64,000 bases of DNA from Xylocopilactobacillus apis (GTDB lineage: Bacteria; Bacillota; Bacilli; Lactobacillales; Lactobacillaceae), in assembly GCF_033095965.1 (NCBI RefSeq), contig NZ_AP026801.1, forward strand, positions 186,001-250,000, read 5' to 3'. This document shows, piece by piece, positions 30,310 through 57,086 of this stretch; positions within the stretch are counted from its first letter, which is position 1; each line of letters starts with the position of its first letter. The notes under the pieces were generated by a model. The model was given only the letters and a program-made list of their open reading frames with translations, was not told the DNA's origin and searched no databases. The position numbers and the translations under genes were made by a program.

Positions 30310-31107
30310 TTGATTAAAAAAATTATCAAACTCAGTCAAAAAACTGACAATGTTAAATACGGGATTATTGCAGCTTATCTATTATACATGATCCCAGTTT
30401 GTGTCTCGATGTCACTAGCGCATGCGGGTTCGATTTATAATGGAGTTTTTCAGGTTATTAACTTCATTACCATGTTTGCCTTTTGGCTTTTTGCCGTTGT
30501 TTTAGGGCGGTTGTCAGGAGTTTCGCAAGGATATAGCGGTTATTTTGTGATTCTTAGTGTCTGGGTCTATCAGAAATTTTCTTTTCTAACTGGTCATCAA
30601 GTCCTTTTTATTACATTATTTGTGATTGGGACTTTCTGGCTGATTTATGAACTTTTAAGAGCATTTCTATATTCTTCGACGCTAGCACGCATCGATCCAA
30701 AAGCATTAACCTACAACATTAGCGGTAATTTGCTTTTCTTTTTGGTTAGTTATTTTATGAGCTTAGCACCTTCAGCAAGTTTAACTTATCAAACGGGCAA
30801 TGGTGCTGAATCGCTCTTAATTTTCATTTACTACTTTCTGCATGTATTAGGGATTGCAGCTGTTGGATTTAGTATTTGGTTCTATCTCTATAATTTGAGA
30901 AAAAGAGCCAATCGTTCAACGATTTGGGGAAATTCATTTTTAATCGTGTCGAGTGTGTTATTTACTTTTCTATTCTTTTTATTCACTAATTTAGTGTGGT
31001 CAGCTTTATTCTATTATGTGGTGGCTTTGATGCCGCTTGGATGTGTGTTAATTATTCCAATTAACATTAATAAGGATTCGCTAAAGAACCATGATCTAGC
31101 GATCTAA
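30310..31107 (+). CDS. Multi-spanning membrane protein of unknown function
   Basis: A 265-residue protein with about seven or eight hydrophobic helices and short basic loops. I recognise no family. TTG start, with AGGAG 9 bases upstream. It is divergent from the PAP2 gene (48-base gap), and its 3' end overlaps that of the response regulator gene by 12 bases tail to tail, so antisense transcription is possible there. Confidence 0.65.
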   Translation: MIKKIIKLSQKTDNVKYGIIAAYLLYMIPVCVSMSLAHAGSIYNGVFQVINFITMFAFWLFAVVLGRLSGVSQGYSGYFVILSVWVYQKFSFLTGHQVLFITLFVIGTFWLIYELLRAFLYSSTLARIDPKALTYNISGNLLFFLVSYFMSLAPSASLTYQTGNGAESLLIFIYYFLHVLGIAAVGFSIWFYLYNLRKRANRSTIWGNSFLIVSSVLFTFLFFLFTNLVWSALFYYVVALMPLGCVLIIPININKDSLKNHDLAI

Positions 31108-31800
31108 TAGAGCCTTGAGTTTTCTTCTGGAAACTAAGGCTTTTTCTTCGTTTGCAAAATGAACAGTCAAATTCTTCTTGTCTACTTCAATGACGTTATC
31201 CAGATTAATCAAGAAAGACTTATGGCAGCGATATAATCGATCATCTAACTTTTCCAAATCAGATAATTTACCCATAAATTCAGTTCTTCTTTTTTTGGAA
31301 ATTAAAATTACCTGATGAGGTTTATTAGAGGTTTCAAAGTACAAAATATCCGAAAAAGGAATTTTAATTTTGCGGGCTTTGTTTTCAAAGATAAAAGGGT
31401 CATCAAGTTCTTGATCATTTTGTTTTGAACGAACATATTCAAGGCTCTCTTTGATTCTGGTTTCAAATTGCGGATCGGTCTTTGAAATAAAATCCAGAGC
31501 ACTGACTTTATAAGAATAGGTGAGAGTTGCAAATTCTAAATGGCTTGTAACAAAAACAATTGCACCCACCTCATCTTTTTCACGAATTGCTTTGGCTACA
31601 TCGAGTCCTTTTTTAGGCTCGTTTTTGATATCGACGTCTAGAAAATAAAGATTACAGGGATCCTGACTTTCAATACAGTCGATCAGATTATTTGGCTTGC
31701 CGGTCGCAAATAAATGGTCGATCTTGAAGTTAAAATTATTAATAATGTTTTCAAGTGACTTTCTTTGGAATAAGTCGTCTTCTAAGATAAAAATGTTCAT
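31096..31800 (-). CDS. LytTR-type response regulator
   Basis: A 234-residue regulator of the AgrA/ComE/BlpR class. The receiver domain (1-120) has acidic pocket residues Asp8-Asp9 and phosphoacceptor Asp55 (Y-F-L-D-V-D). The LytTR DNA-binding domain covers about 135-234 (Y-F-E-T-S-N-K-P-H-Q-V, then H-K-S-F-L-I-N-L-D-N-V). Such proteins bind pairs of direct repeats spaced 21 bp, and a pair of that spacing lies upstream of the small-protein genes at 34406-34434. It overlaps the kinase stop by 4 bases. Confidence 0.93.
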   Translation of the reverse strand: MNIFILEDDLFQRKSLENIINNFNFKIDHLFATGKPNNLIDCIESQDPCNLYFLDVDIKNEPKKGLDVAKAIREKDEVGAIVFVTSHLEFATLTYSYKVSALDFISKTDPQFETRIKESLEYVRSKQNDQELDDPFIFENKARKIKIPFSDILYFETSNKPHQVILISKKRRTEFMGKLSDLEKLDDRLYRCHKSFLINLDNVIEVDKKNLTVHFANEEKALVSRRKLKALLDR

Positions 31801-33086
31801 AGCTGTTCTTCGTTAATTGAGATAATTTGCGTAAAAGAGTTATTGCTAACCTCGGTATCAAGTTCGACAAAATCATAGGAATCAACGATTTTCTTAAGGT
31901 TATAAAGACCAATCCCTTGATGATTCTTCTTGGTAGAAAAGTTAGCATTGAATATTTTACCAAGCGGAATATTTGTTTCGTTAGTATTGTTTTGGATAAC
32001 TAACATCAAAGTTTCGTCTTTTTTAAATAAAGCAAGTTTGAGCATTGGTTCAGCGGTCTTTTTTGCTTCTTCTGTGGCGTTATCGATTAAGATGGAAATC
32101 ATGCGGACGAGATCAATCAAGTCGACTTCTAAATCATCGATTACTTCTTCAATTTCTAGTTCAACTTGAATGTGATCTTTTTTGGCTTCTGTTAATTTCC
32201 AATAAAGGACGCTTTTAAGGGCTGAATTTTTGACGTTAGAAAGGTCACTAAAATCAACGGCAGTCGTTAAATCCATGGAAGACGAATTTTCCATTTCACC
32301 ATATATTTGACGGATTTCTGTTATGTCACCAGCTTTAATACTAGATTTAAGTGTTAGAAAAATATTTAAATAATCGTGACGAAATCCACGTAAAGTTTGA
32401 TACATCGCTTCGATTTCTGAGGTATAAGAACCCAGCTGCTGAATCTGTTTGTCTTTAATTTCTTGTAGTTCGTGTTGGAAATATCGATCAATTTTCTGAC
32501 TGATAAAAGTTTCGATTCCAAAGAAAATAAAAATTAAAAAGAAGACAAGATAGCGGCTGGAATCAATATCTTGGCGGTTATAGTAAAACTCGTAGAAATA
32601 AACGCCTAAGAAAATTATAAAAATTAAAGAAATGATGATGTTTAAAGGACTAATAATTTTCTTTTGAATGTATTCATTATTTCTATTAAGTAAACGCCAG
32701 TCAATACGATAGATTTTGGTGACAATGTAATGAAGAAAGATTGGTAAGATTAAAGAGATAATCGTAAAAATATCATTATATTCTTTGAAAACTTGGTCGG
32801 ACACGAAAATCATAAAGGTCTGTTCAACGAAGTTAGTAAGAATTAATGCAACAGAAGCTGAATACACAGAGAGAAATATTGATTGACTGATTGAAAACTT
32901 TTTGAGTAAAGAATAGACGAAGAAGAATGGGATAATCATGAATACAGATAAGCGAGTCAAGAACGCAAAGCATGCGAAAAAGTAAAGGACAGAATAAGCA
33001 AAACCAAATAAACTGATTTTTCGAGCTACTGAATAATAGATTCCCCAAAGCAATAAAACTTGGGTAAAAGCAATAACTAGGTGCAT
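31797..33086 (-). CDS. AgrC/ComD-type (HPK10-like) sensor histidine kinase
   Basis: A 429-residue membrane sensor. Six to seven hydrophobic helices fill residues 1-195. The phosphoacceptor His237 lies in F-R-H-D-Y-L-N. The ATP-binding domain has N-box L-I-D-N-A-T-E-E-A and G-box G-I-G-L-Y-N-L-K. Kinases of this class usually detect secreted peptides. The start is the ATG at 33086, preceded by GACGGAGAAAAT; an in-frame ATG at 33122 would overlap the preceding small gene. That gene, P1, ends only 16 bases upstream, so signal candidate and sensor appear co-transcribed. Confidence 0.93.
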   Translation of the reverse strand: MHLVIAFTQVLLLWGIYYSVARKISLFGFAYSVLYFFACFAFLTRLSVFMIIPFFFVYSLLKKFSISQSIFLSVYSASVALILTNFVEQTFMIFVSDQVFKEYNDIFTIISLILPIFLHYIVTKIYRIDWRLLNRNNEYIQKKIISPLNIIISLIFIIFLGVYFYEFYYNRQDIDSSRYLVFFLIFIFFGIETFISQKIDRYFQHELQEIKDKQIQQLGSYTSEIEAMYQTLRGFRHDYLNIFLTLKSSIKAGDITEIRQIYGEMENSSSMDLTTAVDFSDLSNVKNSALKSVLYWKLTEAKKDHIQVELEIEEVIDDLEVDLIDLVRMISILIDNATEEAKKTAEPMLKLALFKKDETLMLVIQNNTNETNIPLGKIFNANFSTKKNHQGIGLYNLKKIVDSYDFVELDTEVSNNSFTQIISINEEQL

Positions 33087-33102
33087 ATTTTCTCCGTCAA
33101 AA

Positions 33103-33372
33103 TTATTTTTTAAATACTTCAATTGGGTGTCGATATTTGTTGCTGTGTTCTACTGCATATCGGGCAACTTCATTGTAGCTTTCGTGTTTTTTACTGTGGT
33201 AGCCGCAATTTTTATCAAGGCATTTCCAATAGTAATATTTAGCGGGTTTAACCATACTGAAGCGAAAATCATTTCCATAAATTAAATTGGAAGACATCTG
33301 AGGTTCTGCTTCATAAAATAAGAATAGTAATAACAAAATTTTTAAAATGATTTTTATTAATTTTTTTGACAT
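33103..33372 (-). CDS. Small secreted or membrane-anchored C2H3-motif protein P1
   Basis: An 89-residue protein of no family known to me. It begins with a basic residue cluster and a strongly hydrophobic segment (about 5-19), followed by a short polar linker. Residues 49-88 form a conserved module: W-K-C-L-D-K-N-C-G-Y, K-K-H-E-S-Y, A-R-Y-A-V-E-H-S and Y-R-H. Cys51, Cys56, His63, His76 and His82 keep exactly the spacing seen in the three paralogues. No double-glycine leader and no clear signal peptidase site. It sits just before the kinase gene. Confidence 0.75.
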   Translation of the reverse strand: MSKKLIKIILKILLLLFLFYEAEPQMSSNLIYGNDFRFSMVKPAKYYYWKCLDKNCGYHSKKHESYNEVARYAVEHSNKYRHPIEVFKK

Positions 33373-33380
33373 ACAACCCT

Positions 33381-33668
33381 TTATTTTTTGAATACTTCAA
33401 CTGGATGTATATATTTGTAGCTGTGATCTAGTGCGTATCGAGAAGACTCTAGGTAACCTTCGTGTTTTTTGCTACGGTAACCGCAATTTTTATCACGGCA
33501 TTTCCAATAGTAATATTTAGCAGGTTTAACCATACTGAAGCGAAAATCATTTCCATCAATTAAATTAGAAGACATATCAGGTTCTACTTCGTAAACTAAG
33601 AATAGTAATAACGAAATTTTAAAAATGATTTTTATTATTTTTTTGACATTTAAAATTAAATTTAACAC
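33381..33668 (-). CDS. Small C2H3-motif protein P2, damaged start region
   Basis: Closest paralogue of P1, from a recent tandem duplication: much of the coding region is nearly identical at the DNA level. Cys57, Cys62, His69, His82 and His88 (numbering from the TTG at 33668) conserve the module. The original start corresponds to ATGTCAAAAAAA. Here one T is missing after the A run (plus-strand position 33637/33638), so that ATG now meets a stop after M-S-K-K. The remaining frame is open up to a TTG without a ribosome binding site. It may be poorly expressed or decaying, although the mature part is intact. Confidence 0.6.
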   Translation of the reverse strand: MLNLILNVKKIIKIIFKISLLLFLVYEVEPDMSSNLIDGNDFRFSMVKPAKYYYWKCRDKNCGYRSKKHEGYLESSRYALDHSYKYIHPVEVFKK

Positions 33669-33684
33669 AACAATTTATTAAGAT

Positions 33685-33720
33685 CAAAAAAATCACCATC
33701 TAATCGAGGTGATTTTAAAA
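33685..33720 (-). terminator. Terminator or attenuator between P3 and P2
   Basis: On the minus strand AAAATCACC and GGTGATTTTTTT form a stem with a 10-base loop and a T run. It splits P4-P3 from P2-P1-kinase-regulator, so the second group depends on readthrough or on its own promoter, which I could not identify. Confidence 0.8.
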
Positions 33721-33762
33721 CTGTATAAATTTTATTTTATCGTAAAAGTACAGACACAGTGC

Positions 33763-34056
33763 CTATAATTTACCTTTGAGCAGCTTTATCTTATAAACAT
33801 GGACACCGTGCTCATAGTTTGTGCTATGAGCTAATGCGTATCTTGAAGCAGATATGTAAGAATCGTGAATATTACTCACGTATTCACAGCCTTTAGTAAG
33901 GCATTCCCACTGCCAGTAAGTTTGTTCATTTACGTCAACTTGTTTTTGAGAAACTTCTAGCTTAGGTATTTCAAAAGGATTTGTCTCGACGGGAGTTAGT
34001 GCAGCCGAATTTAAAGTACTAACTGACGATATAAAAAACATAATTTTTGTAAACAT
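33763..34056 (-). CDS. Small secreted C2H3-motif protein P3
   Basis: A 97-residue protein with a short signal-peptide-like N-terminus (M-F-T-K-I-M-F-F-I-S-S-V then S-A-A-L-T), a polar linker (about 22-45) and the conserved module: W-E-C-L-T-K-G-C-E-Y, N-I-H-D-S-Y, S-R-Y-A-L-A-H-S, Y-E-H. The metal or disulfide candidates are Cys52, Cys57, His64, His77 and His83. AAGGAGAGAGATTC precedes the ATG, a strong site. It is 17 bases after P4 in the same transcript. Confidence 0.78.
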   Translation of the reverse strand: MFTKIMFFISSVSTLNSAALTPVETNPFEIPKLEVSQKQVDVNEQTYWQWECLTKGCEYVSNIHDSYISASRYALAHSTNYEHGVHVYKIKLLKGKL

Positions 34057-34073
34057 GAATCTCTCTCCTTAAA

Positions 34074-34343
34074 CTAGGGTAATTTGACGACCTTAATGGC
34101 ATGTCGATAATTTTGACTATGAGCCACCGCATATCTACAAGCAGAAGTGTAAGAATCATGAATGTTACTTACGTATTCACAGCCTTTAGTTATACAGCTC
34201 CATTGCCATTGAGGTTCTTTTTCTGAAACAACGATTTGTGAAGCGCCAAAAGGAGTAGTTTGAGGGGACTCAATCTGGGTATGTAATTGGGTTGTACCAA
34301 ATACTCCAATTGAAGATAGGCAAAACATAAAATTTCTAAACAT
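34074..34343 (-). CDS. Small secreted C2H3-motif protein P4
   Basis: An 89-residue paralogue of P3, first gene of the cluster. The N-terminus is signal-peptide-like (M-F-R-N-F-M-F-C-L-S-S-I-G-V-F-G). The module runs from Trp48 with Cys50, Cys55, His62, His75 and His81, the same spacing as in P1-P3; an extra Cys69 occurs in S-A-C-R-Y-A. AAGGAAGG lies upstream of the ATG. The promoter region carries a 21-bp-spaced direct repeat, pointing to control by the linked LytTR regulator. Confidence 0.78.
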   Translation of the reverse strand: MFRNFMFCLSSIGVFGTTQLHTQIESPQTTPFGASQIVVSEKEPQWQWSCITKGCEYVSNIHDSYTSACRYAVAHSQNYRHAIKVVKLP

Positions 34344-34443: not shown

Positions 34444-34481
34444 AAAAAAAAAGAGCTGACGTTTTAACATCAACTCTTTTT
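34444..34481 (-). terminator. Intrinsic terminator after the glucosaminidase gene
   Basis: On the minus strand AAAAAGAGTTGATGTT pairs with AACGTCAGCTCTTTTT (two wobble pairs), followed by a T run. It isolates the lytic enzyme gene from the small-protein cluster. Confidence 0.8.
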
Positions 34482-34487
34482 ATTAAT

Positions 34488-35525
34488 TTAAGCTGGTAAG
34501 GCGTAAGTTCCATCAATCCATTGATTGGCTCCGACCTTGTACCAAGTTGTACCGTTTATATAATATTTGGCTGAATACTTCCAAGAAGTTCCATGCTTTA
34601 ATTTCTGACCGGTAAAAGCTTTGCCAGCAGTAGCTTTGTTCCAAACTGCGATGCTGTAACCAGGGACGTACTTTACTTTTACGACTCCGCGTTCAGCCAC
34701 TTCGCCAACTGAATCTTTTAAGACAGCGTATTGAGCTGGAATCCACTTGTTAGTTCCAATGTTGTAAAATGATGTACCATCATGAAGAGTAATTTTCTTC
34801 TTTGCAACAATTGGTGCTCCATCGCCTAAGCGTTCGCCAGTTTCTTTTCTGATACCAGCAAATGAGTCGTACACTTTAATGCTGTATCCCGGATAATATT
34901 TAACAGTCCCACTAACATTTAAGTTTTCTACTTTCGGATCGTATTGATCTAAACTGTAAGTTTTAATTGCATTAATTAATGTATTAGCGTACGTTGGACT
35001 TGTTGCATAGCGTCCTTGCAGCCATTTAGCAGAATCCTGATAAGTAGTAGTGTTTTCAAGCCAAGTTCCGGAGTAATAATTCTTATCCCAAGTTAGTCCA
35101 TAACGAAGTTTTTGAGCGTTATCAGAAAAACTATCAGAATAGTCGTTATAAACTCTGAATTTGGCATTTATTGTTACATATTTATTACTTGCTTTGTCCC
35201 ATTCCTGAGTAGGATAAGTAACAGTTTTACCGGTCCAGCCGGTTCCTGCCTTAATTCCGAAAAGATTATAGTTAGGAGCACTTCCTAATTTGGAAGTTCC
35301 CCAATTACTTTCGATGATTGCTTGTGCCATCATGATTGAAGTCCAAAGGCCGTACTGGTCAGACATTTTAATTGCATGTGGTTTAGCTGAATTCATAAAG
35401 TTTTGTTGAGCAGGTGTTATCGCAGCATGCACAATTTGTGTCTGGGAAGCTGCAGTTACTGCTGGAACTATCGGCATTGAAACTAGTGCCAAGGCAGCAG
35501 CGCATAATTTTGTCTTTTTAAACAA
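34488..35525 (-). CDS. Secreted N-acetylglucosaminidase with two SLAP-like wall-binding repeats
   Basis: Peptidoglycan hydrolase of 345 residues. A signal peptide ends near A-S-Q-T-Q-I-V-H-A-A. The GH73-type glucosaminidase domain (about 35-190) contains the catalytic region M-M-A-Q-A-I-I-E-S-N-W-G and N-L-F-G-I-K. Two C-terminal repeats of about 65 residues each contain P-G-Y-S-I-x-V and end W-Y-K-V-G-A-N-Q-W-I-x-G-T-Y-A or a close variant, the pattern of lactobacillar SLAP domains that bind wall polymers. TTG start at 35525, five bases after GGAGG. Confidence 0.88.
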   Translation of the reverse strand: MFKKTKLCAAALALVSMPIVPAVTAASQTQIVHAAITPAQQNFMNSAKPHAIKMSDQYGLWTSIMMAQAIIESNWGTSKLGSAPNYNLFGIKAGTGWTGKTVTYPTQEWDKASNKYVTINAKFRVYNDYSDSFSDNAQKLRYGLTWDKNYYSGTWLENTTTYQDSAKWLQGRYATSPTYANTLINAIKTYSLDQYDPKVENLNVSGTVKYYPGYSIKVYDSFAGIRKETGERLGDGAPIVAKKKITLHDGTSFYNIGTNKWIPAQYAVLKDSVGEVAERGVVKVKYVPGYSIAVWNKATAGKAFTGQKLKHGTSWKYSAKYYINGTTWYKVGANQWIDGTYALPA

Positions 35526-35590
35526 GGTTTCCTCCAAAAAATTAACTCAGGTAAGGATAACATATTTTTGGTTGATCGAAAGATTTGTAT

Positions 35591-36355
35591 TTAATTTGAT
35601 AACGAAATGTCTTTTTTGTTGAAGAAAGTATCAGCAATTAAATAGAAAATGCAGATGTAAACAAGATTTGCAGCTAGGGTAATTGCAAAGTCACTGTTAA
35701 ACTTCGTCAGATCAGTTAAATACTTGTAAGAGTAAAAAGGTGATAATCTAAAACCCCAACTATCAATTTTAATTTTTAATAACATTGCGATAACAGTCCA
35801 AATACCAGGAATAACATAATAGTAGACAATTGAAATTGCAGTTGCCATTGAGGAACTGTTAATCACTGTTGAGATCATTAAAGCAAAAGATGAGAAGAAC
35901 ACAGTTTCAAACAAGACAGTTAAAATTGCAATCCCACCTTTATTAAATACCACGTCCATTCCTGGAGCCTGTCCGAAAAATATTAATACAAAAATATAAT
36001 TAAGAATTATTGACACTAAAGTGAAAGCAGACATTAAAATAGCAATTGAAGCAAATTTAGCCATTAAAATTTTGTGCCGATCATATGGACGTGTTAAGAG
36101 AAATTTAATCGTTCCGCTAGACATTTCACGAGTAATCGTTGTCGAAGCAAAAAGAATTCCTAACAAAATAAGAAAAGAAATTGAGATTTGCATCGATGTC
36201 TCAAAAAAACTATTAATATCCCAATCATGGGATTTCGATGAGAACCGAATTATTGCAAAAAATGCTAACGTAGTGATTAACTGTAGTGTTGGAAAAGGAA
36301 TTGAAATTCCCTTGCGGCGGAAAAATTTGCGCCATTCATTTATTAGTAATTTCAT
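35591..36355 (-). CDS. ABC-2-type permease
   Basis: A 254-residue permease with six helices and the ABC-2 pattern (T-T-I-T-R-E-M-S-S-G-T-I-K-F-L-L-T-R-P before helix 3). It pairs with the ATPase encoded just upstream, whose stop it overlaps by 4 bases (ATGA). The pair resembles BcrA/BcrB-type exporters of bacitracin or lantibiotics; no regulator sits next to it, so the substrate is open. Confidence 0.85.
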   Translation of the reverse strand: MKLLINEWRKFFRRKGISIPFPTLQLITTLAFFAIIRFSSKSHDWDINSFFETSMQISISFLILLGILFASTTITREMSSGTIKFLLTRPYDRHKILMAKFASIAILMSAFTLVSIILNYIFVLIFFGQAPGMDVVFNKGGIAILTVLFETVFFSSFALMISTVINSSSMATAISIVYYYVIPGIWTVIAMLLKIKIDSWGFRLSPFYSYKYLTDLTKFNSDFAITLAANLVYICIFYLIADTFFNKKDISLSN

Positions 36356-37308
36356 TCGTTAGTTCCTTTCTGTTGATTATCCGCTGTAATGGTATTAAGG
36401 AATGAATCTTCAAGCGAACTGTGTGAAAGCTGCAGCCCTAAAAGAGGAACGTCGTTAGTAACTAAGATACGGGCAATTTCAGCTCTTTGATCGCCGTCTT
36501 CTTCATTAATAGAAACTTCAAGTCGATTAAGTTTATTAGTTACATGGTATCCTTTATCAATTAACAACGCTTCAGCGTGCTGGACGTCACTGCCGACTTC
36601 AACGTAAATAACAGAATCAGTTCGACTAAGAAAGTCGCTCATCTTACCTTCATAAATTTTTTGACCTTTATTTATAATGAAAAGATCATTAACTACATCT
36701 TGAATTTCTGAAAGAATATGACTTGAAATAATGATACTGTTGCCCTGTTGGACAAAGTTTTTCATTAAATCTCGGAAGTCTTTCATTCCCTGAGGATCAA
36801 GTCCGTTCATTGGTTCATCTAAAAGTAAAACTTTTGGATTATGCATTGTTGCATTAGCAACACCCAATCGCTGGCGCATTCCAAGTGAATAGCCTTTAAC
36901 TTTCTTCTTTTCTGCCCCTTTAAGACCAGTATTAGCAAGATCCTGCATTAATTCTTCATTAGAAATATCCTTGCGGCTCATGTCGGCAAAAATCCGCAGA
37001 TTTTGTAATCCCGTCATATAGTTATAAAATTCAGGACTTTCAATGATGGTTCCAATATTAAAAGCGGCTTTTTCAAAATTCTTCTTAGTATCATGACCGC
37101 AAACTTGAACCGATCCACTGGTTTGGTGCATTAAACCAGTAATGATTCTTAAAAGCGTTGTTTTACCAGCACCGTTAGGTCCTAAAAAGCCTAAAATTCG
37201 GCCTGGTGCAACTTTAAAAGAAATATCGTTAAGAATTTGATTATTATGAATCTTCTTAGACACATTATTTACTTCAACAAGGTAGTTGGTATTTTCCAAT
37301 TTTCCCAC
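36352..37308 (-). CDS. BcrA-like ABC exporter ATPase
   Basis: A 318-residue ATPase with Walker A G-P-N-G-A-G-K-T, signature Y-S-L-G-M-R-Q-R, Walker B L-L-L-D-E-P-M-N-G-L-D-P and switch S-S-H. A C-terminal extension of about 90 residues is typical of drug-export ATPases. It starts with GTG at 37308; a TTG three codons later is an equally weak alternative, as no strong ribosome binding site is visible. It lies 3 bases after queT. Confidence 0.9.
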   Translation of the reverse strand: MGKLENTNYLVEVNNVSKKIHNNQILNDISFKVAPGRILGFLGPNGAGKTTLLRIITGLMHQTSGSVQVCGHDTKKNFEKAAFNIGTIIESPEFYNYMTGLQNLRIFADMSRKDISNEELMQDLANTGLKGAEKKKVKGYSLGMRQRLGVANATMHNPKVLLLDEPMNGLDPQGMKDFRDLMKNFVQQGNSIIISSHILSEIQDVVNDLFIINKGQKIYEGKMSDFLSRTDSVIYVEVGSDVQHAEALLIDKGYHVTNKLNRLEVSINEEDGDQRAEIARILVTNDVPLLGLQLSHSSLEDSFLNTITADNQQKGTNE

Positions 37309-50445: not shown

Positions 50446-50548
50446 AGTCAAGTGCGATTTTTAGAGCAGTTTTTTTTTAATTGTGAAAATGAAAGTGTTA
50501 TAAAATAGATATAATAATTATAGACATTTTTGATTGGAGAGGAGTATC

Positions 50549-52315
50549 TTGAAAAAGGTTAAAAGTTTTCCTCTATTTTTAATAATAGCGTTAGTCTTTG
50601 TAGTTAACTTTAGCTCAGTAAATGCTGACATTACTAATGTATCAGTAACACCACAAATTGATTCTGGTGATACAGATAAATTTGAAATGGTTGTAAAACC
50701 GGGTGAGAAACGAACCCTGACAATTGCATTTACAAATTTTGGGTCAGCTGTTGAGAGATTGACGATTCAGCCTACTAACGCGCAAACAGACGCAACGGGT
50801 AATTTTGTCTATAATGAGGTTATAAAAAAGGGGACTGATGGTCTTCAGGCAGCATTTGCTGATATGACATCAAAAAAGACAATAACATTACAGCCGCAAC
50901 AGTCAAAGACTGAGACTTTAACAGTAAGTACTCCTAATGATCGTTTTGATGGAGTCATTTATGGCGGCCTAAATATTTATAGTGTTAATGCTGACGGAGG
51001 ACATTTAAACGGGGAAAGTACGCCGATTCCAGTTATTATTACCCAAACGAATGAAAATGTTCCAGGTAACGGTAAAGTTACAGGAATTGAGGCACAGGCA
51101 ATCTCATATCAGCCCAATATTGTTATTAATTTAGTTAATAATAAACCTGGTGAGGCTCGAAATGTTTCTTATAATTTGATGATCCAGCGAAAAGGGATGT
51201 TCAGCTTTCTAGGGTTTAATGGAAGAAAAGTACCTGTTTATCAGTCCGATTTAACCATCGCTCCTAATTCGACACTACCAATTCCGGTTAATTTTAAGCA
51301 GCAGCCGTTAAAAGCAGGAGAATATATGGTAACGGGCAGTTTTACCGTTAATGGTAAAACTCATAAAGTTAATGAGACGTATAAACTTAGTAAATCTGAT
51401 GTTGAAAAAGTTAATAAGCAGTCTAAAGGCTTGATTTATGATAAAACTTGGATTTTTGTACTTGTTATTATTGGCTTAATTATTTTAATTGGAATTGTAA
51501 TTTTCTTAATTGTTAGACAAATTCGTTATAATAGAAGAGAAGAAAATAATCGCTTGGTTGCTGAATCTGATAAGATTTTGAAATCTGAACAAACTCAAGA
51601 GTCAAAAAGCAGTTCTAAATCTACACCTCCTCAATACGGACAGAGTAATGTTCAAAACAATCAGCGGGGGACTAATCAAAATCCTTATCAAGGACAGGCA
51701 CCAAATTCATATCAGAATTCGGGACAAATGCCATACAATCAGCCATTAAATTATCAAAATCCTTATCCGAATAATGGGAATTTTCAACAAAATAATTCAA
51801 TGGCTCCAAATCAAAGGCAAAATCAACCAATTAATAATCAGTCAATTCCAAATTATAATAATCCGTCTCCTTCAATGGGTCAAAACGCTAATCAAGGACA
51901 ATTTTCTAATGGTCGTCCGCAACAGGTTAATCCAAATTATGGCAACCCGCAAAATCAAGGACAGCCTCCGGTTTACGGATCTTATCCAAATCAGCAGGCA
52001 GGAATGGTTCAGCCTAATACTTCACAAAATAATTTTAGACCTAATCAAAGTGGACCAAATAATTTTGTTCAGCCGGTTAATGGGAACAATGTAAATCCAT
52101 TGCCAAATCAATATTATGGTCAAACGCCTAATAATCTAAATTCTCAACAGATGAATAATAATAGTTTAAATGGACAAGGGCCTGGTTTAACACAAAATCA
52201 AAACTTTGGGAATCAACCGAAGCCCAATTCAACAAATAATAGTGAAGAGTCTAGTAATCAGCAAGATTCTGACTGGGATCAAATTTCATTGGATGATCTT
52301 ATGAAAAAGCACTAA
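50549..52315 (+). CDS. DUF916/DUF3324 WxL-binding protein with long N/Q/P-rich tail
   Basis: A 588-residue protein. Signal peptide (1-26), DUF916 domain (about 30-150), DUF3324 domain (about 160-290), one transmembrane helix (about 301-325), then R-Q-I-R-Y-N-R-R-E-E and a 262-residue tail. The tail is rich in Asn, Gln, Pro, Gly and Tyr (repeats such as N-Q-N-P-Y-Q-G-Q) and ends with an acidic segment D-W-D-Q-I-S-L-D-D-L. DUF916/DUF3324 proteins anchor WxL proteins to the wall and normally stop soon after the helix, so the tail is unusual. TTG start behind GAGAGGAG. Confidence 0.88.
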   Translation: MKKVKSFPLFLIIALVFVVNFSSVNADITNVSVTPQIDSGDTDKFEMVVKPGEKRTLTIAFTNFGSAVERLTIQPTNAQTDATGNFVYNEVIKKGTDGLQAAFADMTSKKTITLQPQQSKTETLTVSTPNDRFDGVIYGGLNIYSVNADGGHLNGESTPIPVIITQTNENVPGNGKVTGIEAQAISYQPNIVINLVNNKPGEARNVSYNLMIQRKGMFSFLGFNGRKVPVYQSDLTIAPNSTLPIPVNFKQQPLKAGEYMVTGSFTVNGKTHKVNETYKLSKSDVEKVNKQSKGLIYDKTWIFVLVIIGLIILIGIVIFLIVRQIRYNRREENNRLVAESDKILKSEQTQESKSSSKSTPPQYGQSNVQNNQRGTNQNPYQGQAPNSYQNSGQMPYNQPLNYQNPYPNNGNFQQNNSMAPNQRQNQPINNQSIPNYNNPSPSMGQNANQGQFSNGRPQQVNPNYGNPQNQGQPPVYGSYPNQQAGMVQPNTSQNNFRPNQSGPNNFVQPVNGNNVNPLPNQYYGQTPNNLNSQQMNNNSLNGQGPGLTQNQNFGNQPKPNSTNNSEESSNQQDSDWDQISLDDLMKKH

Positions 52316-52324
52316 GCCGACACC

Positions 52325-52350
52325 AAAAAGGTGCTAATTAGTGCTTTTTT
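52325..52350 (+). terminator. Probable intrinsic terminator
   Basis: AAAAAGGTGCT and AGTGCTTTTTT pair with three G-T wobbles around AATT, ending in T6. It lies between the first and second DUF916 genes. Confidence 0.5.
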
Positions 52351-52440
52351 ATGAATAAAATAACGGATAAAATGGTATAAGACGTTTACTTTTAGTAAGA
52401 TTAGTGAATGGATAATTAAAGTAATAAAAGGAGTTATATC

Positions 52441-53547
52441 TTGAAAAAGATACCCAAGTTTATTTATGTTTGTGGATTGTTATTTTTTTCTTTAATAATA
52501 TCAAATACATTAATTGTAAAAGCTGCGGATGATAACAATTTACAAGCTGTGATGCCAGAAATTTCCGTAATTACTGACGAAGAAGGATTCACTAAGAGCA
52601 ATAATAATGGTTTTTATGATATTAACTTTAAACCTGGTGAAAATATTGTTTTAGGCGCACGAATTCAAAATACAGTAAATAAAAAAATCGATGTTGAAAT
52701 TACACCTGGAACCGTGATTACTAATCAAGGGCATATAGTTTATGGGGATCAGTCAAATCAAATGATTGATAAAAGTAATAAATATCCTTTTTCAAAAATG
52801 GTAAAGAAGCAAACTGTTTCAATTGAACCAAAAGGATCTTTAGAAGTTAAAATTCCTGTCAATGTTCCAAAAGAAAAATTTAATGGGACAATTTTAGGAA
52901 ATATAGCATTTACAGTGTTAGGACAAGATGAACAGACAAAAAGCCGTAAAAGTTTAGCAACAATTACTAATGTTGTACGTCAAGCTTTAGTTGTACGTCT
53001 TCGTCAGGGATTTCAGCCAGATCCTGATTTTGAAATTGGAAATCCTTCAACTGGCGGAAGTCTAAAAGGCCCTACTTTTACGATTCCCATTCGAAACGTA
53101 GCAGCAACTTATTTTAAGGAAAATGCCGGTACAAGAGTTCATTATGTTGTGACAAAAGAAAATGATAAAAATGTTACATACACAAGTACTGATAAAAATA
53201 TTTCAATGGCTCCAAACTCTTTTTACAATGGAGTTATATCCACTAAAGGAAGAGCAATCGAGCCTGGTCAGTATAATATGAAAATCTCAATTAAATATAA
53301 AGGGAAAACTACGAGATTTTCAAAGAATTTTGTTGTAACCAAAGCACGAACAAAAAATATTAATAAAGGTTCTACACTTAAATCTAAAGAATCAAAGTCA
53401 GGGTTTAATTTTTTAATCGTAGCAATAATATTTGTTATTATTTTAATCATGCTATTTGCTCTTTACGCTGGAATGCATCGAGCACAGACAAAATCTAAAA
53501 CAAATGATCAGGGTGACCGAAGAGTAAGAAGTCGAAGTAAAAAGTGA
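52441..53547 (+). CDS. DUF916/DUF3324 cell-surface protein
   Basis: A 368-residue protein with signal peptide (1-28), DUF916 (about 35-165), DUF3324 (about 170-300), one C-terminal helix (about 320-343) and a short basic tail (R-R-V-R-S-R-S-K-K). The family hallmarks F-K-P-G-E-N and V-P-K-E-K-F-N-G-T-I-L-G are visible. TTG start, preceded by AAAGGAGTTATATC. It is likely to bind a WxL partner at the membrane-wall interface. Confidence 0.9.
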   Translation: MKKIPKFIYVCGLLFFSLIISNTLIVKAADDNNLQAVMPEISVITDEEGFTKSNNNGFYDINFKPGENIVLGARIQNTVNKKIDVEITPGTVITNQGHIVYGDQSNQMIDKSNKYPFSKMVKKQTVSIEPKGSLEVKIPVNVPKEKFNGTILGNIAFTVLGQDEQTKSRKSLATITNVVRQALVVRLRQGFQPDPDFEIGNPSTGGSLKGPTFTIPIRNVAATYFKENAGTRVHYVVTKENDKNVTYTSTDKNISMAPNSFYNGVISTKGRAIEPGQYNMKISIKYKGKTTRFSKNFVVTKARTKNINKGSTLKSKESKSGFNFLIVAIIFVIILIMLFALYAGMHRAQTKSKTNDQGDRRVRSRSKK

Positions 53548-54103
53548 TATCTTCAAAAAGAAGAAAATGATTTATAAAGAAATGAACATTTAAAACACTT
53601 GTTTAAGTTATAATAATACTAGTTGATTTCTAGATCAAAATTAAGATGAATTGCAGTCGTGGCATCTTGCAAGATGACTAAGTGGGACATTCTCGATCTG
53701 ACACAACGCATATTTTTGAATTATTCTGATGAGGATTAATTTAAAACCAATAGCTAATAGTTAGACCGGATGATGTTAACAGTCTAACATTCAATTGGAA
53801 AATTTGATGCTAGGTGATATTTGTTCTAAACAAACTGCAGGTTTAGAATCTTACTACGAAAATAGATTTTTGTATTAAGAACTGGGGAATAATGTTTATT
53901 GGAAACTGAATGCTGGGACTTCACTTGAATTCAGTGACATAATGCTGTAATAGAACAATTAAATAGTCGGAATTTGGGAATTGTTTTTAGCCATAACAAT
54001 CTTATAATCCAAAAACCAAAAAATAATTTATTAAGAACGGATCGATTAATTCTTAGACTTTAGTTATACTATTAATAGGTAAACTTTGGGTGGAAATATA
54101 ATA
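53548..54103. other. 556-base intergenic region without a convincing gene
   Basis: The longest gene-free stretch of the window. I see no reading frame with a ribosome binding site and no protein remnant. It contains a perfect 14-base palindrome, CATCTTGCAAGATG (53663-53676), and a hairpin with 7-bp arms GTTAGAC / GTCTAAC (53760-53788). Some of it reads as less AT-rich than other spacers. It may hold a long leader, an RNA or the remains of a deleted gene. A possible -10 box TATACT lies near 54065, before the WxL gene. Confidence 0.5.
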
Positions 54104-55228
54104 ATGAAAGAAAAAAGGAAAAATTTAAAATCATCTCTATCTTGTGCAGCAGTTTTAGCACTGTTTTCTCCGATGATGCTTCAAAAACCTGAATCGGTAC
54201 AGGCTCTTCCGGTGGCTTCAGCTGCGACAAATGTTGGAATTACTTTTAATGATGGTGTCCTAACATTGGTTTCTGTTCCGAATTTTGACTTTGGAGCGAA
54301 TAAGTTAGACGATACTACAAAGTTTGTTCCTTTATATGCATCTGCATCAAGTACAGTTGGTGATCCGGTGAACGGGGCATTTATGGATCAGACTAGTTCA
54401 GCATCTCCTACAAGAACTTTAAGAGATTCTACTAAATATCGATCTTTAATTGTGTCAGACAGCAGGCTTCCGATTAATAGTTCAGGAACTTATAATGGTT
54501 GGACTGTTTCAGCACACATGACTGTTGGTTCAGCTGCTTCTCTTGGATCAACTAATATTAACAGTCATGTTAGCGCTGGGGATCCAAACCCTGATGCAGG
54601 GGTAATTGGAGGAGTTGCGCAAAAGTTTGCGGCAGCAATTGAATTCGGCAACGGATTTGGTAATAGTTTAGCGATTTCATCATTAACTGGCGGTCAAGCA
54701 GGTAATTCGACTCCAGTTTCTCATCCGGCAACTTATTATAATTCTGATCCTAATATGGAGGGAAAATCTTATACTTCATCAGGAGCGCCAATAAATACTG
54801 TTTCAAGATGGACTCGGGTTGATACGGACACAACTGATGTACCAGCTACGGATAATTCAGTAAGTGGTGTTTTTGCTGGACTTTTCTTTCCGCGACTCGC
54901 AAAAACCCCAATTGCTAATAATGCAGCTCAGATAACGGCCGTTGCGAGCAGTGATCCAAATAATAATAATGTTGCTAATAATTCTCAAATCACAACAATA
55001 CCGATGGGTAATACAGATAATTATTTGTGGGGGTATCTTGGTACTCAACAGACTGCTGCTGCATCTAGTCGGCCTGATAGTGTATCAAATGGTGCATGGG
55101 CATTAGATTTTCACGATAAAGGATCGGCTATTATGTCGATGCCAAAAGCAGTCGCTTTGAATCGTCACGGTACGTATGTTTATAATATTTATTGGACTTT
55201 AACATCAGGATTTCATCAGAATCCTTGA
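54104..55228 (+). CDS. WxL-domain cell-surface protein
   Basis: A 374-residue secreted protein. The signal peptide ends near A-L-P-V-A-S-A-A. The WxL domain spans most of the rest. The first motif is G-W-T-V-S-A-H-M, a W-x-V variant of W-x-L, and the second is Y-W-T-L-T-S near the C-terminus, as in the family. A long Ser/Thr/Asn-rich centre suggests a surface-exposed region. WxL proteins bind peptidoglycan non-covalently and work with DUF916 proteins, which flank it here. ATG at 54104, 11 bases after GGGTGG; an in-frame TTG at 54086 has no site. Confidence 0.88.
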   Translation: MKEKRKNLKSSLSCAAVLALFSPMMLQKPESVQALPVASAATNVGITFNDGVLTLVSVPNFDFGANKLDDTTKFVPLYASASSTVGDPVNGAFMDQTSSASPTRTLRDSTKYRSLIVSDSRLPINSSGTYNGWTVSAHMTVGSAASLGSTNINSHVSAGDPNPDAGVIGGVAQKFAAAIEFGNGFGNSLAISSLTGGQAGNSTPVSHPATYYNSDPNMEGKSYTSSGAPINTVSRWTRVDTDTTDVPATDNSVSGVFAGLFFPRLAKTPIANNAAQITAVASSDPNNNNVANNSQITTIPMGNTDNYLWGYLGTQQTAAASSRPDSVSNGAWALDFHDKGSAIMSMPKAVALNRHGTYVYNIYWTLTSGFHQNP

Positions 55229-55255
55229 TAAAAATTATTCGATAAGTTTATAATT

Positions 55256-55287
55256 AAAATCTCCATTAGGAGGTTTTATTTTTTTTT
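55256..55287 (+). terminator. Intrinsic terminator after the WxL gene
   Basis: AAAATCTCC-ATTA-GGAGGTTTT (one G-T pair), followed by a nine-T run. Confidence 0.85.
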
Positions 55288-55343
55288 ATGATTATTTTAT
55301 GTAAATAAAATTTTGATTAGTGTTTTTAAGATACAATGGGGTT

Positions 55344-56513
55344 ATGGTAACAAAAAAAAGAAAAGATGTTTGGCTTTTAATTTTAATAATATTATCTTTT
55401 TTCTTGATAAATGACCGTGTTTCAGCTGAAACAGGGATATTTAGTGTTAAACCAATTTTTCCGGATAATCAAATTAGTCAGCAAAATGCGTATTATTTAT
55501 TAGTAAAACCAGGAGATAAACAGAATATTTCTTTTTACGTTACGAATTTGAGGAATTACACTCAGACTTTTGAAATAATGCCTGGAATGTATGTTAATAA
55601 TTCTCAAGGAGATATGGCACTTACAACAGACAAAAAAGATTTGGATCCTAGTTTGCCGGTAAATATGATGGATATGGGTGTAAAGCCCACATATCTTACA
55701 GTTCCAGCAAATCAAACAGTTAAAGTTAGTCAGGTGTACAAAATCCCTTCTGAGAAATTCAAGGGCTTAATTTATGGTGGAATTCGGGTCATTTCAGGAC
55801 TTCAAAATTCTTCAGAAATGAAAAATAGTAAAAAGTCTCGGGCTTTGATTAATACATATGCTCAAATGGATACAGGAGTTATTATGACGATGGATAAAAA
55901 TTACCCTAAAGGGAAGCTGATCGTTAAAAATGTAACCCCAAGTGCTGCTGTACCTAGACCCGTTTTTAATATTAAAATTCAAAATCCAGAAGGGACAATT
56001 ATTGATAGTCTTAATTTAAAGGCTAAAATAAAAAAAGAGGGTTTTAACGTTCCTAATACTAAAGTGTCAAAGGTGGAATTATCTAATGATTATTACGGCT
56101 ATACAGTTGCTCCTTATTCGAAGTTAAACCTAGTAATGAATATTGGCAAGACTCGGCTGCAGCCGGGTAAATATACACTCAAACTAACTGGTAAATCTCA
56201 TGGCCATAAGTTTAATCAAAAATATAATTTTATGGTATCTCAAAATATTGCAAATAAAATAAATAAAGATAATTCTCAAATTAGTGCAGATTATACATGG
56301 CTTTACTTCATCATAATTATCGGAATTATTTTAATTCTAATCGCATTTGTAATCTTTATGTATTTCTTCGGAATGAAAAAAGTTTTGCACCTGCCAGAAA
56401 CTAATAATAAAGTGCAAAGTCCAAGGTCAAGATCGACCAATGAAGTTAAAAATACAACAGAAGTTAAGCGAAATCGTTACGGGACTTCTAATGTTCCAAA
56501 ACGAAAACGATAA
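55344..56513 (+). CDS. DUF916/DUF3324 cell-surface protein (third copy)
   Basis: A 389-residue protein with signal peptide (1-28), DUF916 and DUF3324 domains (about 30-160 and 165-300), a helix at about 318-342 and a basic tail (K-R-N-R-Y-G-T-S-N-V-P-K-R-K-R). V-K-P-G-D-K and I-P-S-E-K-F-K-G-L-I-Y-G-G-I are the family marks. No properly spaced ribosome binding site precedes the ATG at 55344. A -10-like TACAAT at 55332-55337 would place the transcript start on or next to this ATG. Confidence 0.86.
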   Translation: MVTKKRKDVWLLILIILSFFLINDRVSAETGIFSVKPIFPDNQISQQNAYYLLVKPGDKQNISFYVTNLRNYTQTFEIMPGMYVNNSQGDMALTTDKKDLDPSLPVNMMDMGVKPTYLTVPANQTVKVSQVYKIPSEKFKGLIYGGIRVISGLQNSSEMKNSKKSRALINTYAQMDTGVIMTMDKNYPKGKLIVKNVTPSAAVPRPVFNIKIQNPEGTIIDSLNLKAKIKKEGFNVPNTKVSKVELSNDYYGYTVAPYSKLNLVMNIGKTRLQPGKYTLKLTGKSHGHKFNQKYNFMVSQNIANKINKDNSQISADYTWLYFIIIIGIILILIAFVIFMYFFGMKKVLHLPETNNKVQSPRSRSTNEVKNTTEVKRNRYGTSNVPKRKR

Positions 56514-56525
56514 TTAGGTTAAGAA

Positions 56526-57086
56526 ATGAAACGAAAAATATTAGACATTTTATTTATATTTTTAACTTTTTTGGGGATAAGCTCAACGGCCAATGCAGCT
56601 GTTCAAAATGTTACCCCTTATACCGGATATTTAGCTTACGTTCGAAATTATGGAATTCGTCTTTATAAAAATAGTGGAGTACCTAGTAACACTTATTTAC
56701 TGCATGGGACCGCTTGGAAAATTTCAGCAAAGAATGTTGATACATTGGGGAGAACATGGTGTCGGGTTGGTAATGACCAGTGGGTTCCTCAAAGTAATAT
56801 TACTTTGAAAAATCCTAATTACTCGACAGTGCTGACTATTAGTGCTCATGGTAAGAAAACTAAAAGCTATACTTTATATCACTCACCAAGCCGTTTATCA
56901 CCAATAAAAAACGGGTTAGTCAACAAAAAAGTTGCGGTGGGCTCTTCATGGAAGGTGACCCAATCAGCGACCAACGGTGCTGAAATTTGGTATAACTTAG
57001 GGGGGAACCAGTGGATTAGTGGGATGTATACAACAATGCCGGCAACCGCAGGACCTTCAAATGCACCGACGATAACTTTTAAGTAA
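56526..57086 (+). CDS. Secreted protein with two SLAP-like repeats
   Basis: A 186-residue protein: signal peptide (1-24, ending T-A-N-A-A), then two repeats of about 70 residues each containing Y-x-x-R/Y and ending W-C-R-V-G-N-D-Q-W-V or W-Y-N-L-G-G-N-Q-W-I. The same repeat type forms the wall-binding end of the glucosaminidase at 34488. No catalytic domain, so it is probably a wall-attached surface protein. It lies 12 bases after the DUF916 gene. Confidence 0.75.
   Translation: MKRKILDILFIFLTFLGISSTANAAVQNVTPYTGYLAYVRNYGIRLYKNSGVPSNTYLLHGTAWKISAKNVDTLGRTWCRVGNDQWVPQSNITLKNPNYSTVLTISAHGKKTKSYTLYHSPSRLSPIKNGLVNKKVAVGSSWKVTQSATNGAEIWYNLGGNQWISGMYTTMPATAGPSNAPTITFK

Follow-up and report, generated by a model that had tools for sequence, protein, structure and literature searches.

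The closest described systems to the genes reported here are the class II bacteriocins (PF10439, blp loci) and the quorum-sensing cassettes of the Pln/Blp/Agr kind, in which small exported peptide genes lie directly upstream of a sensor kinase and a matching LytTR regulator. Genes for inducing peptides of the plnA/comC type usually lie just upstream of the kinase gene, and the known ligands of AgrC/BlpH-type kinases are short peptides. Lactococcin 972-type bacteriocins (PF09683) are small exported proteins of Gram-positive bacteria. Cysteines of exported proteins are usually oxidised. The locus described here resembles the Pln/Blp/Agr cassettes in its kinase, its regulator and the position of its small exported genes, but differs from them in that the upstream genes, which we call P4, P3, P2 and P1, encode folded domains of ~45 residues, and in that it has neither AgrB/AgrD nor a GG inducer. 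By the window we mean the whole stretch of 64,000 nucleotides of Xylocopilactobacillus apis DNA that was analysed. The host strain is probably X. apis KimC2. This strain and X. apicola XA3 are strict anaerobes from the carpenter-bee gut, with genomes of 2.27 and 2.31 Mbp, respectively (PMC10433979).

The cassette, in the order P4-P3-P2-P1-HK-RR, spans 3.2 kb of the minus strand (31096..34343), and all four small ORFs are present on that strand in the ORF list of the window. P4 (34074..34343, 89 aa) was identified as a mini-protein, predicted to be exported, from its ORF, its Shine-Dalgarno sequence GGAAGG and alignments, the last of which place its core at residues 39-89, with C50, C55, H62, H75 and H81. 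Its paralogue P3 (33763..34056, 97 aa) has the same core and is preceded by the Shine-Dalgarno sequence AAGGAGAGAG. P1 (33103..33372, 89 aa), with a strongly hydrophobic N-terminus, sits ~17 bp upstream of the start of a sensor histidine kinase gene of the AgrC/BlpH type (31797..33086), which begins at ATG 33086 behind the Shine-Dalgarno sequence GGAGA; with a start at TTG 33122 the kinase would overlap P1. The LytTR response regulator gene (31096..31800, Pfam LytTR and Response_reg) follows. P2 (33381..33668), the paralogue of P1, can be read in frame only if translation starts at the GTG at 33668. The ATG that matches the start of P1 is out of frame and falls within a poly-A run (33640-33668), and no clear Shine-Dalgarno sequence stands upstream of the GTG; the start region, as read from these features, suggests decay or slippage control. 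On the same strand, a terminator-like hairpin 3' of the upstream glucosaminidase gene (34448..34481) was detected by a consensus scan and is the predicted 5' limit of the cassette transcript. A second hairpin, followed by seven T residues, was seen by eye between P3 and P2 (33690..33718, minus strand); it was not returned by the terminator consensus scan, and is a possible terminator separating P4-P3 from P2-P1-HK-RR.

In both pairs of paralogues nonsynonymous differences are far below synonymous ones (pN/pS of 0.105/0.344 for P1 versus P2, and of 0.17/0.80 for P3 versus P4), a mark of purifying selection, and consequently P1-P4 are real, maintained proteins. The cassette is missing at the same site in all three congeneric genomes compared (L369, L370, L371), where the orthologues of its flanking genes, a transporter (30310-31107) and the glucosaminidase (34488-35537), adjoin directly; in genome G001 the site between the flanks holds one unrelated 107-aa ORF. 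The six genes therefore form one unit that was either acquired or repeatedly lost. This unit contains solely P1-P4, the kinase and the regulator, with no dedicated exporter and no recognisable immunity gene, and the gaps within it are too small for a separate GG-leader inducer gene, so that P1-P4 are its only candidate exported products. An ABC pair at 35591-37308, which resembles the pair found beside a streptococcal relative (locus L355), was considered as dedicated immunity and rejected: all three congeners have the pair without the cassette, and it belongs to the genus backbone, outside the cassette. Elsewhere in the window, at 50534-57086, lies a cluster of genes for DUF916-like/WxL-type surface proteins; a relative of P1-P4 in another family (L036, in locus L349) also adjoins DUF916-like proteins.

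The kinase matched Pfam HATPase_c_5 at 4.8e-16 and reached 156 bits with the AgrC model, under its cut-off of 500, while the regulator reached 159 bits with the AgrA model, under a cut-off of 400. The two proteins are 31% and 42% identical, respectively, to the kinase and the regulator of a streptococcal locus (L357) that holds a relative of P1-P4, and the window thus has a GHKL (HPK10-type) kinase and a LytTR regulator beside peptide genes. No AgrB-like ORF was found within the cassette, and a search for LytTR boxes ahead of P4 and P2 gave no clear 9-mer direct repeat spaced by 20-23 bp. Both complete genomes of the genus contain repeated modules in which AgrCA-type two-component genes are accompanied by MacAB-like ABC genes and by small ORFs resembling lipoproteins (L026, L027, L369). 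Genome G000 has six further matches to AgrC-like kinases, and at ~1.740 Mb it encodes a 37-aa double-glycine peptide, MLKKLTEQQLEEIKGGKTFTQLTWFRDRKSGKYWWWF (L025:7086-7199, minus strand), which adjoins an AgrC-like kinase and is a candidate plantaricin-type inducer.

Such an arrangement could mean that one or more of the four proteins, most likely P1/P2, is the pheromone of the adjacent kinase and has no killing activity, the chief alternative to a bacteriocin-like function. P1, ending ~17 bp before the kinase start, is placed like a pln/com inducer gene, the cassette leaves no place for another GG-leader inducer, and it contains only P1-P4 and the two-component system, which would have moved as a unit. 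We consider a purely signalling role rather unlikely, since four copies in two diverged pairs exceed the needs of a signal, the ligands of such kinases are known as short peptides, and in most loci of the streptococcal relatives described below an ABC ATPase/permease pair comes next, an arrangement typical of bacteriocin immunity. Pheromone and bacteriocin roles can coexist.

The preliminary description of this locus had reported two cysteines and three histidines at identical distances in P1-P4, and this was borne out: the spacing C-x4-C-x6-H-x12-H-x5-H is the same in the four proteins, within a 46-residue C-terminal core that is preceded by a hydrophobic N-terminus. The accompanying statement that exactly these residues had been conserved was too strong, as invariance extends to 17 of the core's 46 columns (W, K, Y, S, RYA, S and Y among others), and the enrichment of Cys and His in this set is modest (five of six C/H columns, hypergeometric P = 0.02).

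Searches with profiles of the core brought in 21 additional members from other Lactobacillales, which together with P1-P4 make up the working alignment of 25 sequences. In about 400 Lactobacillales genomes the core profile matched genome G677 at 3e-15 and, more weakly, G528, G486 and G674; with an expanded profile the streptococcal members were reached, as were others from the family of G528. This family, which also holds G674 and G677, is probably Enterococcaceae, and genus g43 was taken as Streptococcus because the core sequence of its genome G1210 is the same as that of Streptococcus thoraltensis DSM 12221. Limiting the query to the core was decisive: full-length P1-P4 retrieved no relatives, and a full-length profile gave only weak fragments in Lactobacillaceae, most with internal stops. 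No member was found by a back-translated scan of named genomes or by tblastn against plasmids and phages. A hand-made DNA pattern gave mostly chance matches and one true match in S. thoraltensis, and no member on viral contigs. The A3 matches in the 6.5-7.2-Mb genomes (f12) are ~180-aa proteins and were discarded as unrelated. None of Pfam, NCBIfam, PHROGs and PADLOC has a family for the core, all matches of P1-P4 being sub-threshold, and no core sequence string was found in the literature searched; the family is undescribed. Some copies look damaged. In S. thoraltensis DSM 12221 (L117:2774-2944) and in L314 a member with an in-frame stop is followed by an ABC ATPase/permease pair, and in L355 (6719-6871, minus strand) a GG-leader member beside an intact C39 exporter stops at EKKIQGA, short of the final His and the final strand, and is probably a truncated copy.

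The five-residue pattern, described as invariant from the four window proteins, is departed from in the 25-member alignment. Only W10, S21 and H24 (core numbering) are invariant, whereas C12 is kept in 24 of 25 members, C17 in 17, H37 in 22 and H43 in 18. More distant homologues do not keep all five residues, the outcome that the preliminary description had named as refuting its reading: six streptococcal members lack both C17 and H43 (three of these also lack H37), and three more members lack one cysteine, namely C17 in L038 and L320 and C12 in L296. Loss of C17 tends to go along with loss of H37 and H43, the behaviour to be expected of residues that share a site. The proposed single metal site of five residues is thus not supported, because H24 persists in members that have lost the other ligands; H24 is separate from the site and probably not an essential ligand. 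The idea of an exported mini-domain whose gene adjoins that of a sensor kinase did stand, as did a Cys/His arrangement that is zinc-finger-like in the predicted fold.

That fold is, with confidence, predicted to be beta-beta-alpha-beta. AlphaFold2 models of the P4 core (pLDDT 93.3) show strands at 7-12 and 45-50, a helix at 27-41 and bridges at 20 and 24, and the same elements are found in the core of the streptococcal member L316 (pLDDT 96.9). In the models C12 ends the first strand and C17 comes next, with H37 near the C-terminal end of the helix, in its last turns, and H43 immediately past it, a layout predicted to form a C2H2-type site. It departs from the classical C-x2-4-C-x12-H-x3-5-H motif of a beta-beta-alpha unit, which no member of P1-P4 matches: here the motif is C-x4-C-x19-H-x5-H, with a spacer of 19 instead of 12 residues between Cys and His and an additional third strand, and no zf-C2H2 Pfam match was returned for P1-P4. 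C17 and H43 are both kept or both lost in 22 of the 25 members, and in all six members without both, position 45 of the last strand is a Cys. For this co-occurrence the Fisher test gave P = 0.001, a value not to be taken literally, as the six look like one clade and their co-loss may reflect one evolutionary event. The joint loss of C17 and H43 and the gain of C45 in all six are what one exchangeable metal site would be expected to produce, and we infer that C12, C17, H37 and H43 would form a single four-ligand site, for which a C12-C45 disulfide would substitute in one streptococcal clade.

The two cysteines may instead form an extracellular disulfide or redox loop, the histidines serving as surface or stability residues with no zinc involved. 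Cysteines of exported proteins are normally oxidised, the streptococcal clade appears to have a disulfide in the same fold, and the members lacking only C17 (L038, L320) or C12 (L296) would fit a redox loop. Of the eight members without C17, six have lost H43 as well, which is unexpected for a C12-C17 bond; furthermore, C-x2-C, the commonest Cys spacing in the family, is customary for zinc knuckles, and the probable host is a strict anaerobe, so that reduced cysteines outside the cell are plausible. A disulfide loop in place of zinc is accordingly doubtful, though with an appreciable chance of being right, and zinc is held to be roughly twice as probable for the predicted site. An extracellular C2H2-like ligand set adjoining a sensor kinase could also point to zinc scavenging or sensing, with the kinase reading the metal state of the domains. 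We regard this as very improbable, given a kinase of the peptide-sensing AgrC/BlpH type, a cassette without a zinc transporter, and relatives with an incomplete ligand set that remain in similar loci.

Comparison with other structures places the fold among small proteins of several kinds. Searches of solved structures by sequence and by fold gave no convincing match (best Foldseek E 1.4), and the VIA-align result (Z 5.7 for 51 residues, 2.2 A) is at a level also usual for unrelated folds. Many small predicted viral proteins show a similar arrangement. One of them, from phage pAh6-C, has the same fold and, by length match, apparently has neither Cys nor His; the fold is hence compatible with zinc without requiring it. 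A closer likeness is the 43-aa CxxC motif protein ChaoS9_340 of Halobacterium phage ChaoS9 (L372:44124-44255), which shares the predicted fold (TM 0.70/0.81) and the H-x12-H-x5-H spacing, including the middle His, but has C-x2-C and no leader and is matched weakly by hhalign (probability 6.7%, P 0.005). This halovirus protein may point to a larger zinc-finger-like group, as yet without a name, that includes DUF7848 (PF25232), with which the best family member scored 23.5 bits against a cut-off of 24.5, and P1, P3 and L036 scored 13-14 bits.

The presumably intracellular location of these phage proteins, together with the very hydrophobic N-terminus of P1/P2 and its lack of a clear cleavage site, would suit membrane-anchored or cytoplasmic regulatory mini zinc fingers, with the N-terminus as the anchor. 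A signal-peptidase site is not clear in any of the four N-termini, P3 perhaps excepted, and P1/P2, judged by sequence, could be membrane-anchored. An anchored or intracellular role is nonetheless quite improbable, because in several relatives the N-terminus is either a clear Sec-type signal (L036, L050) or a GG leader for which the cognate exporter is present.

It is the relatives that link the family to bacteriocins. The streptococcal members are ~56-66 aa long and have leaders that end in GG. In L315 the leader passed the cut-offs of PF10439 Bacteriocin_IIc (3.1e-6; 27.5 against 27.1 bits) and TIGR01847 (16.2 against 15.7 bits), and in L316 it passed that of ComC (21.8 against 20.4 bits), with Bacteriocin_IIc under cut-off at 22.1 bits; in the remaining streptococcal members the GG leader was judged by eye only. 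Exporters with a C39 peptidase adjoin members in four loci (L354, L355, L360, L361), a GHKL kinase and a LytTR regulator lie near members in L357 and L364 (the regulator alone in L356), and other Bacteriocin_IIc peptides are nearby in L362 and L364. In most streptococcal loci an ABC ATPase and an ABC-2-type permease come directly after the peptide or the exporter. Outside Streptococcus most members have Sec-type signal peptides and less telling surroundings, with no obvious bacteriocin locus in L349-L352; L038, in genome G486, has a GG leader and an adjoining MacB-like permease.

GG leaders, GHKL/LytTR genes or C39 exporters, and ABC neighbours are thus shared by the streptococcal members with class II bacteriocins, from which they differ in a mature part that is predicted to fold compactly as beta-beta-alpha-beta, stapled by a C2H2 site or by a disulfide, and that is matched by no bacteriocin model. 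P1-P4 differ further in their hydrophobic, Sec-like N-termini, which match neither PF10439 nor related leader models and lack a GG leader, and in a cassette without exporter or immunity gene. With lactococcin 972 they share small size and export, but neither P1-P4 nor their relatives matched PF09683 in Pfam scans. We take P1-P4 to be bacteriocin-like exported mini-proteins because their streptococcal relatives have GG leaders and blp-type loci or C39 exporters; the literature search found no antimicrobial activity of any member.

Together, these observations lead us to give an even chance to the reading that P1-P4 are exported, quorum-controlled, metal-stapled bacteriocin-like domains of an undescribed Lactobacillales family. 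The cassette's own quorum-sensing pair would switch on expression, and export would follow the Sec route. One Zn ion held by C12, C17, H37 and H43 would staple the knuckle of the first strand to the end of the helix, leaving the invariant W10, S21 and H24 as a probable working surface, and the released domains would be directed at bacterial competitors within the gut of the bee. A disulfide from C12 to the last strand may have taken the place of the metal staple in one clade of streptococcal members.

Taken more broadly, the family may consist of secreted zinc-finger antimicrobials or pheromones that are exported by two unrelated routes, Sec and GG/C39, under quorum control, with a fixed Trp/Ser/His set and a zinc staple exchanged for a disulfide in one clade, a proposal we put forward tentatively and at somewhat less than an even chance. 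This fold type is otherwise known chiefly from inside cells. If the proposal is true, a folded, metal-stapled mini-domain would join the bacteriocin-like effectors, so far mostly linear, modified or helical peptides, and the family would offer a clear case of the exchange of a metal site for a disulfide within one fold. It would also provide a means of spotting many unannotated small genes in Lactobacillales, and would mean that a bacterium belonging to the core gut symbionts of carpenter bees has what may be a weapon against, or a signal to, other bacteria.
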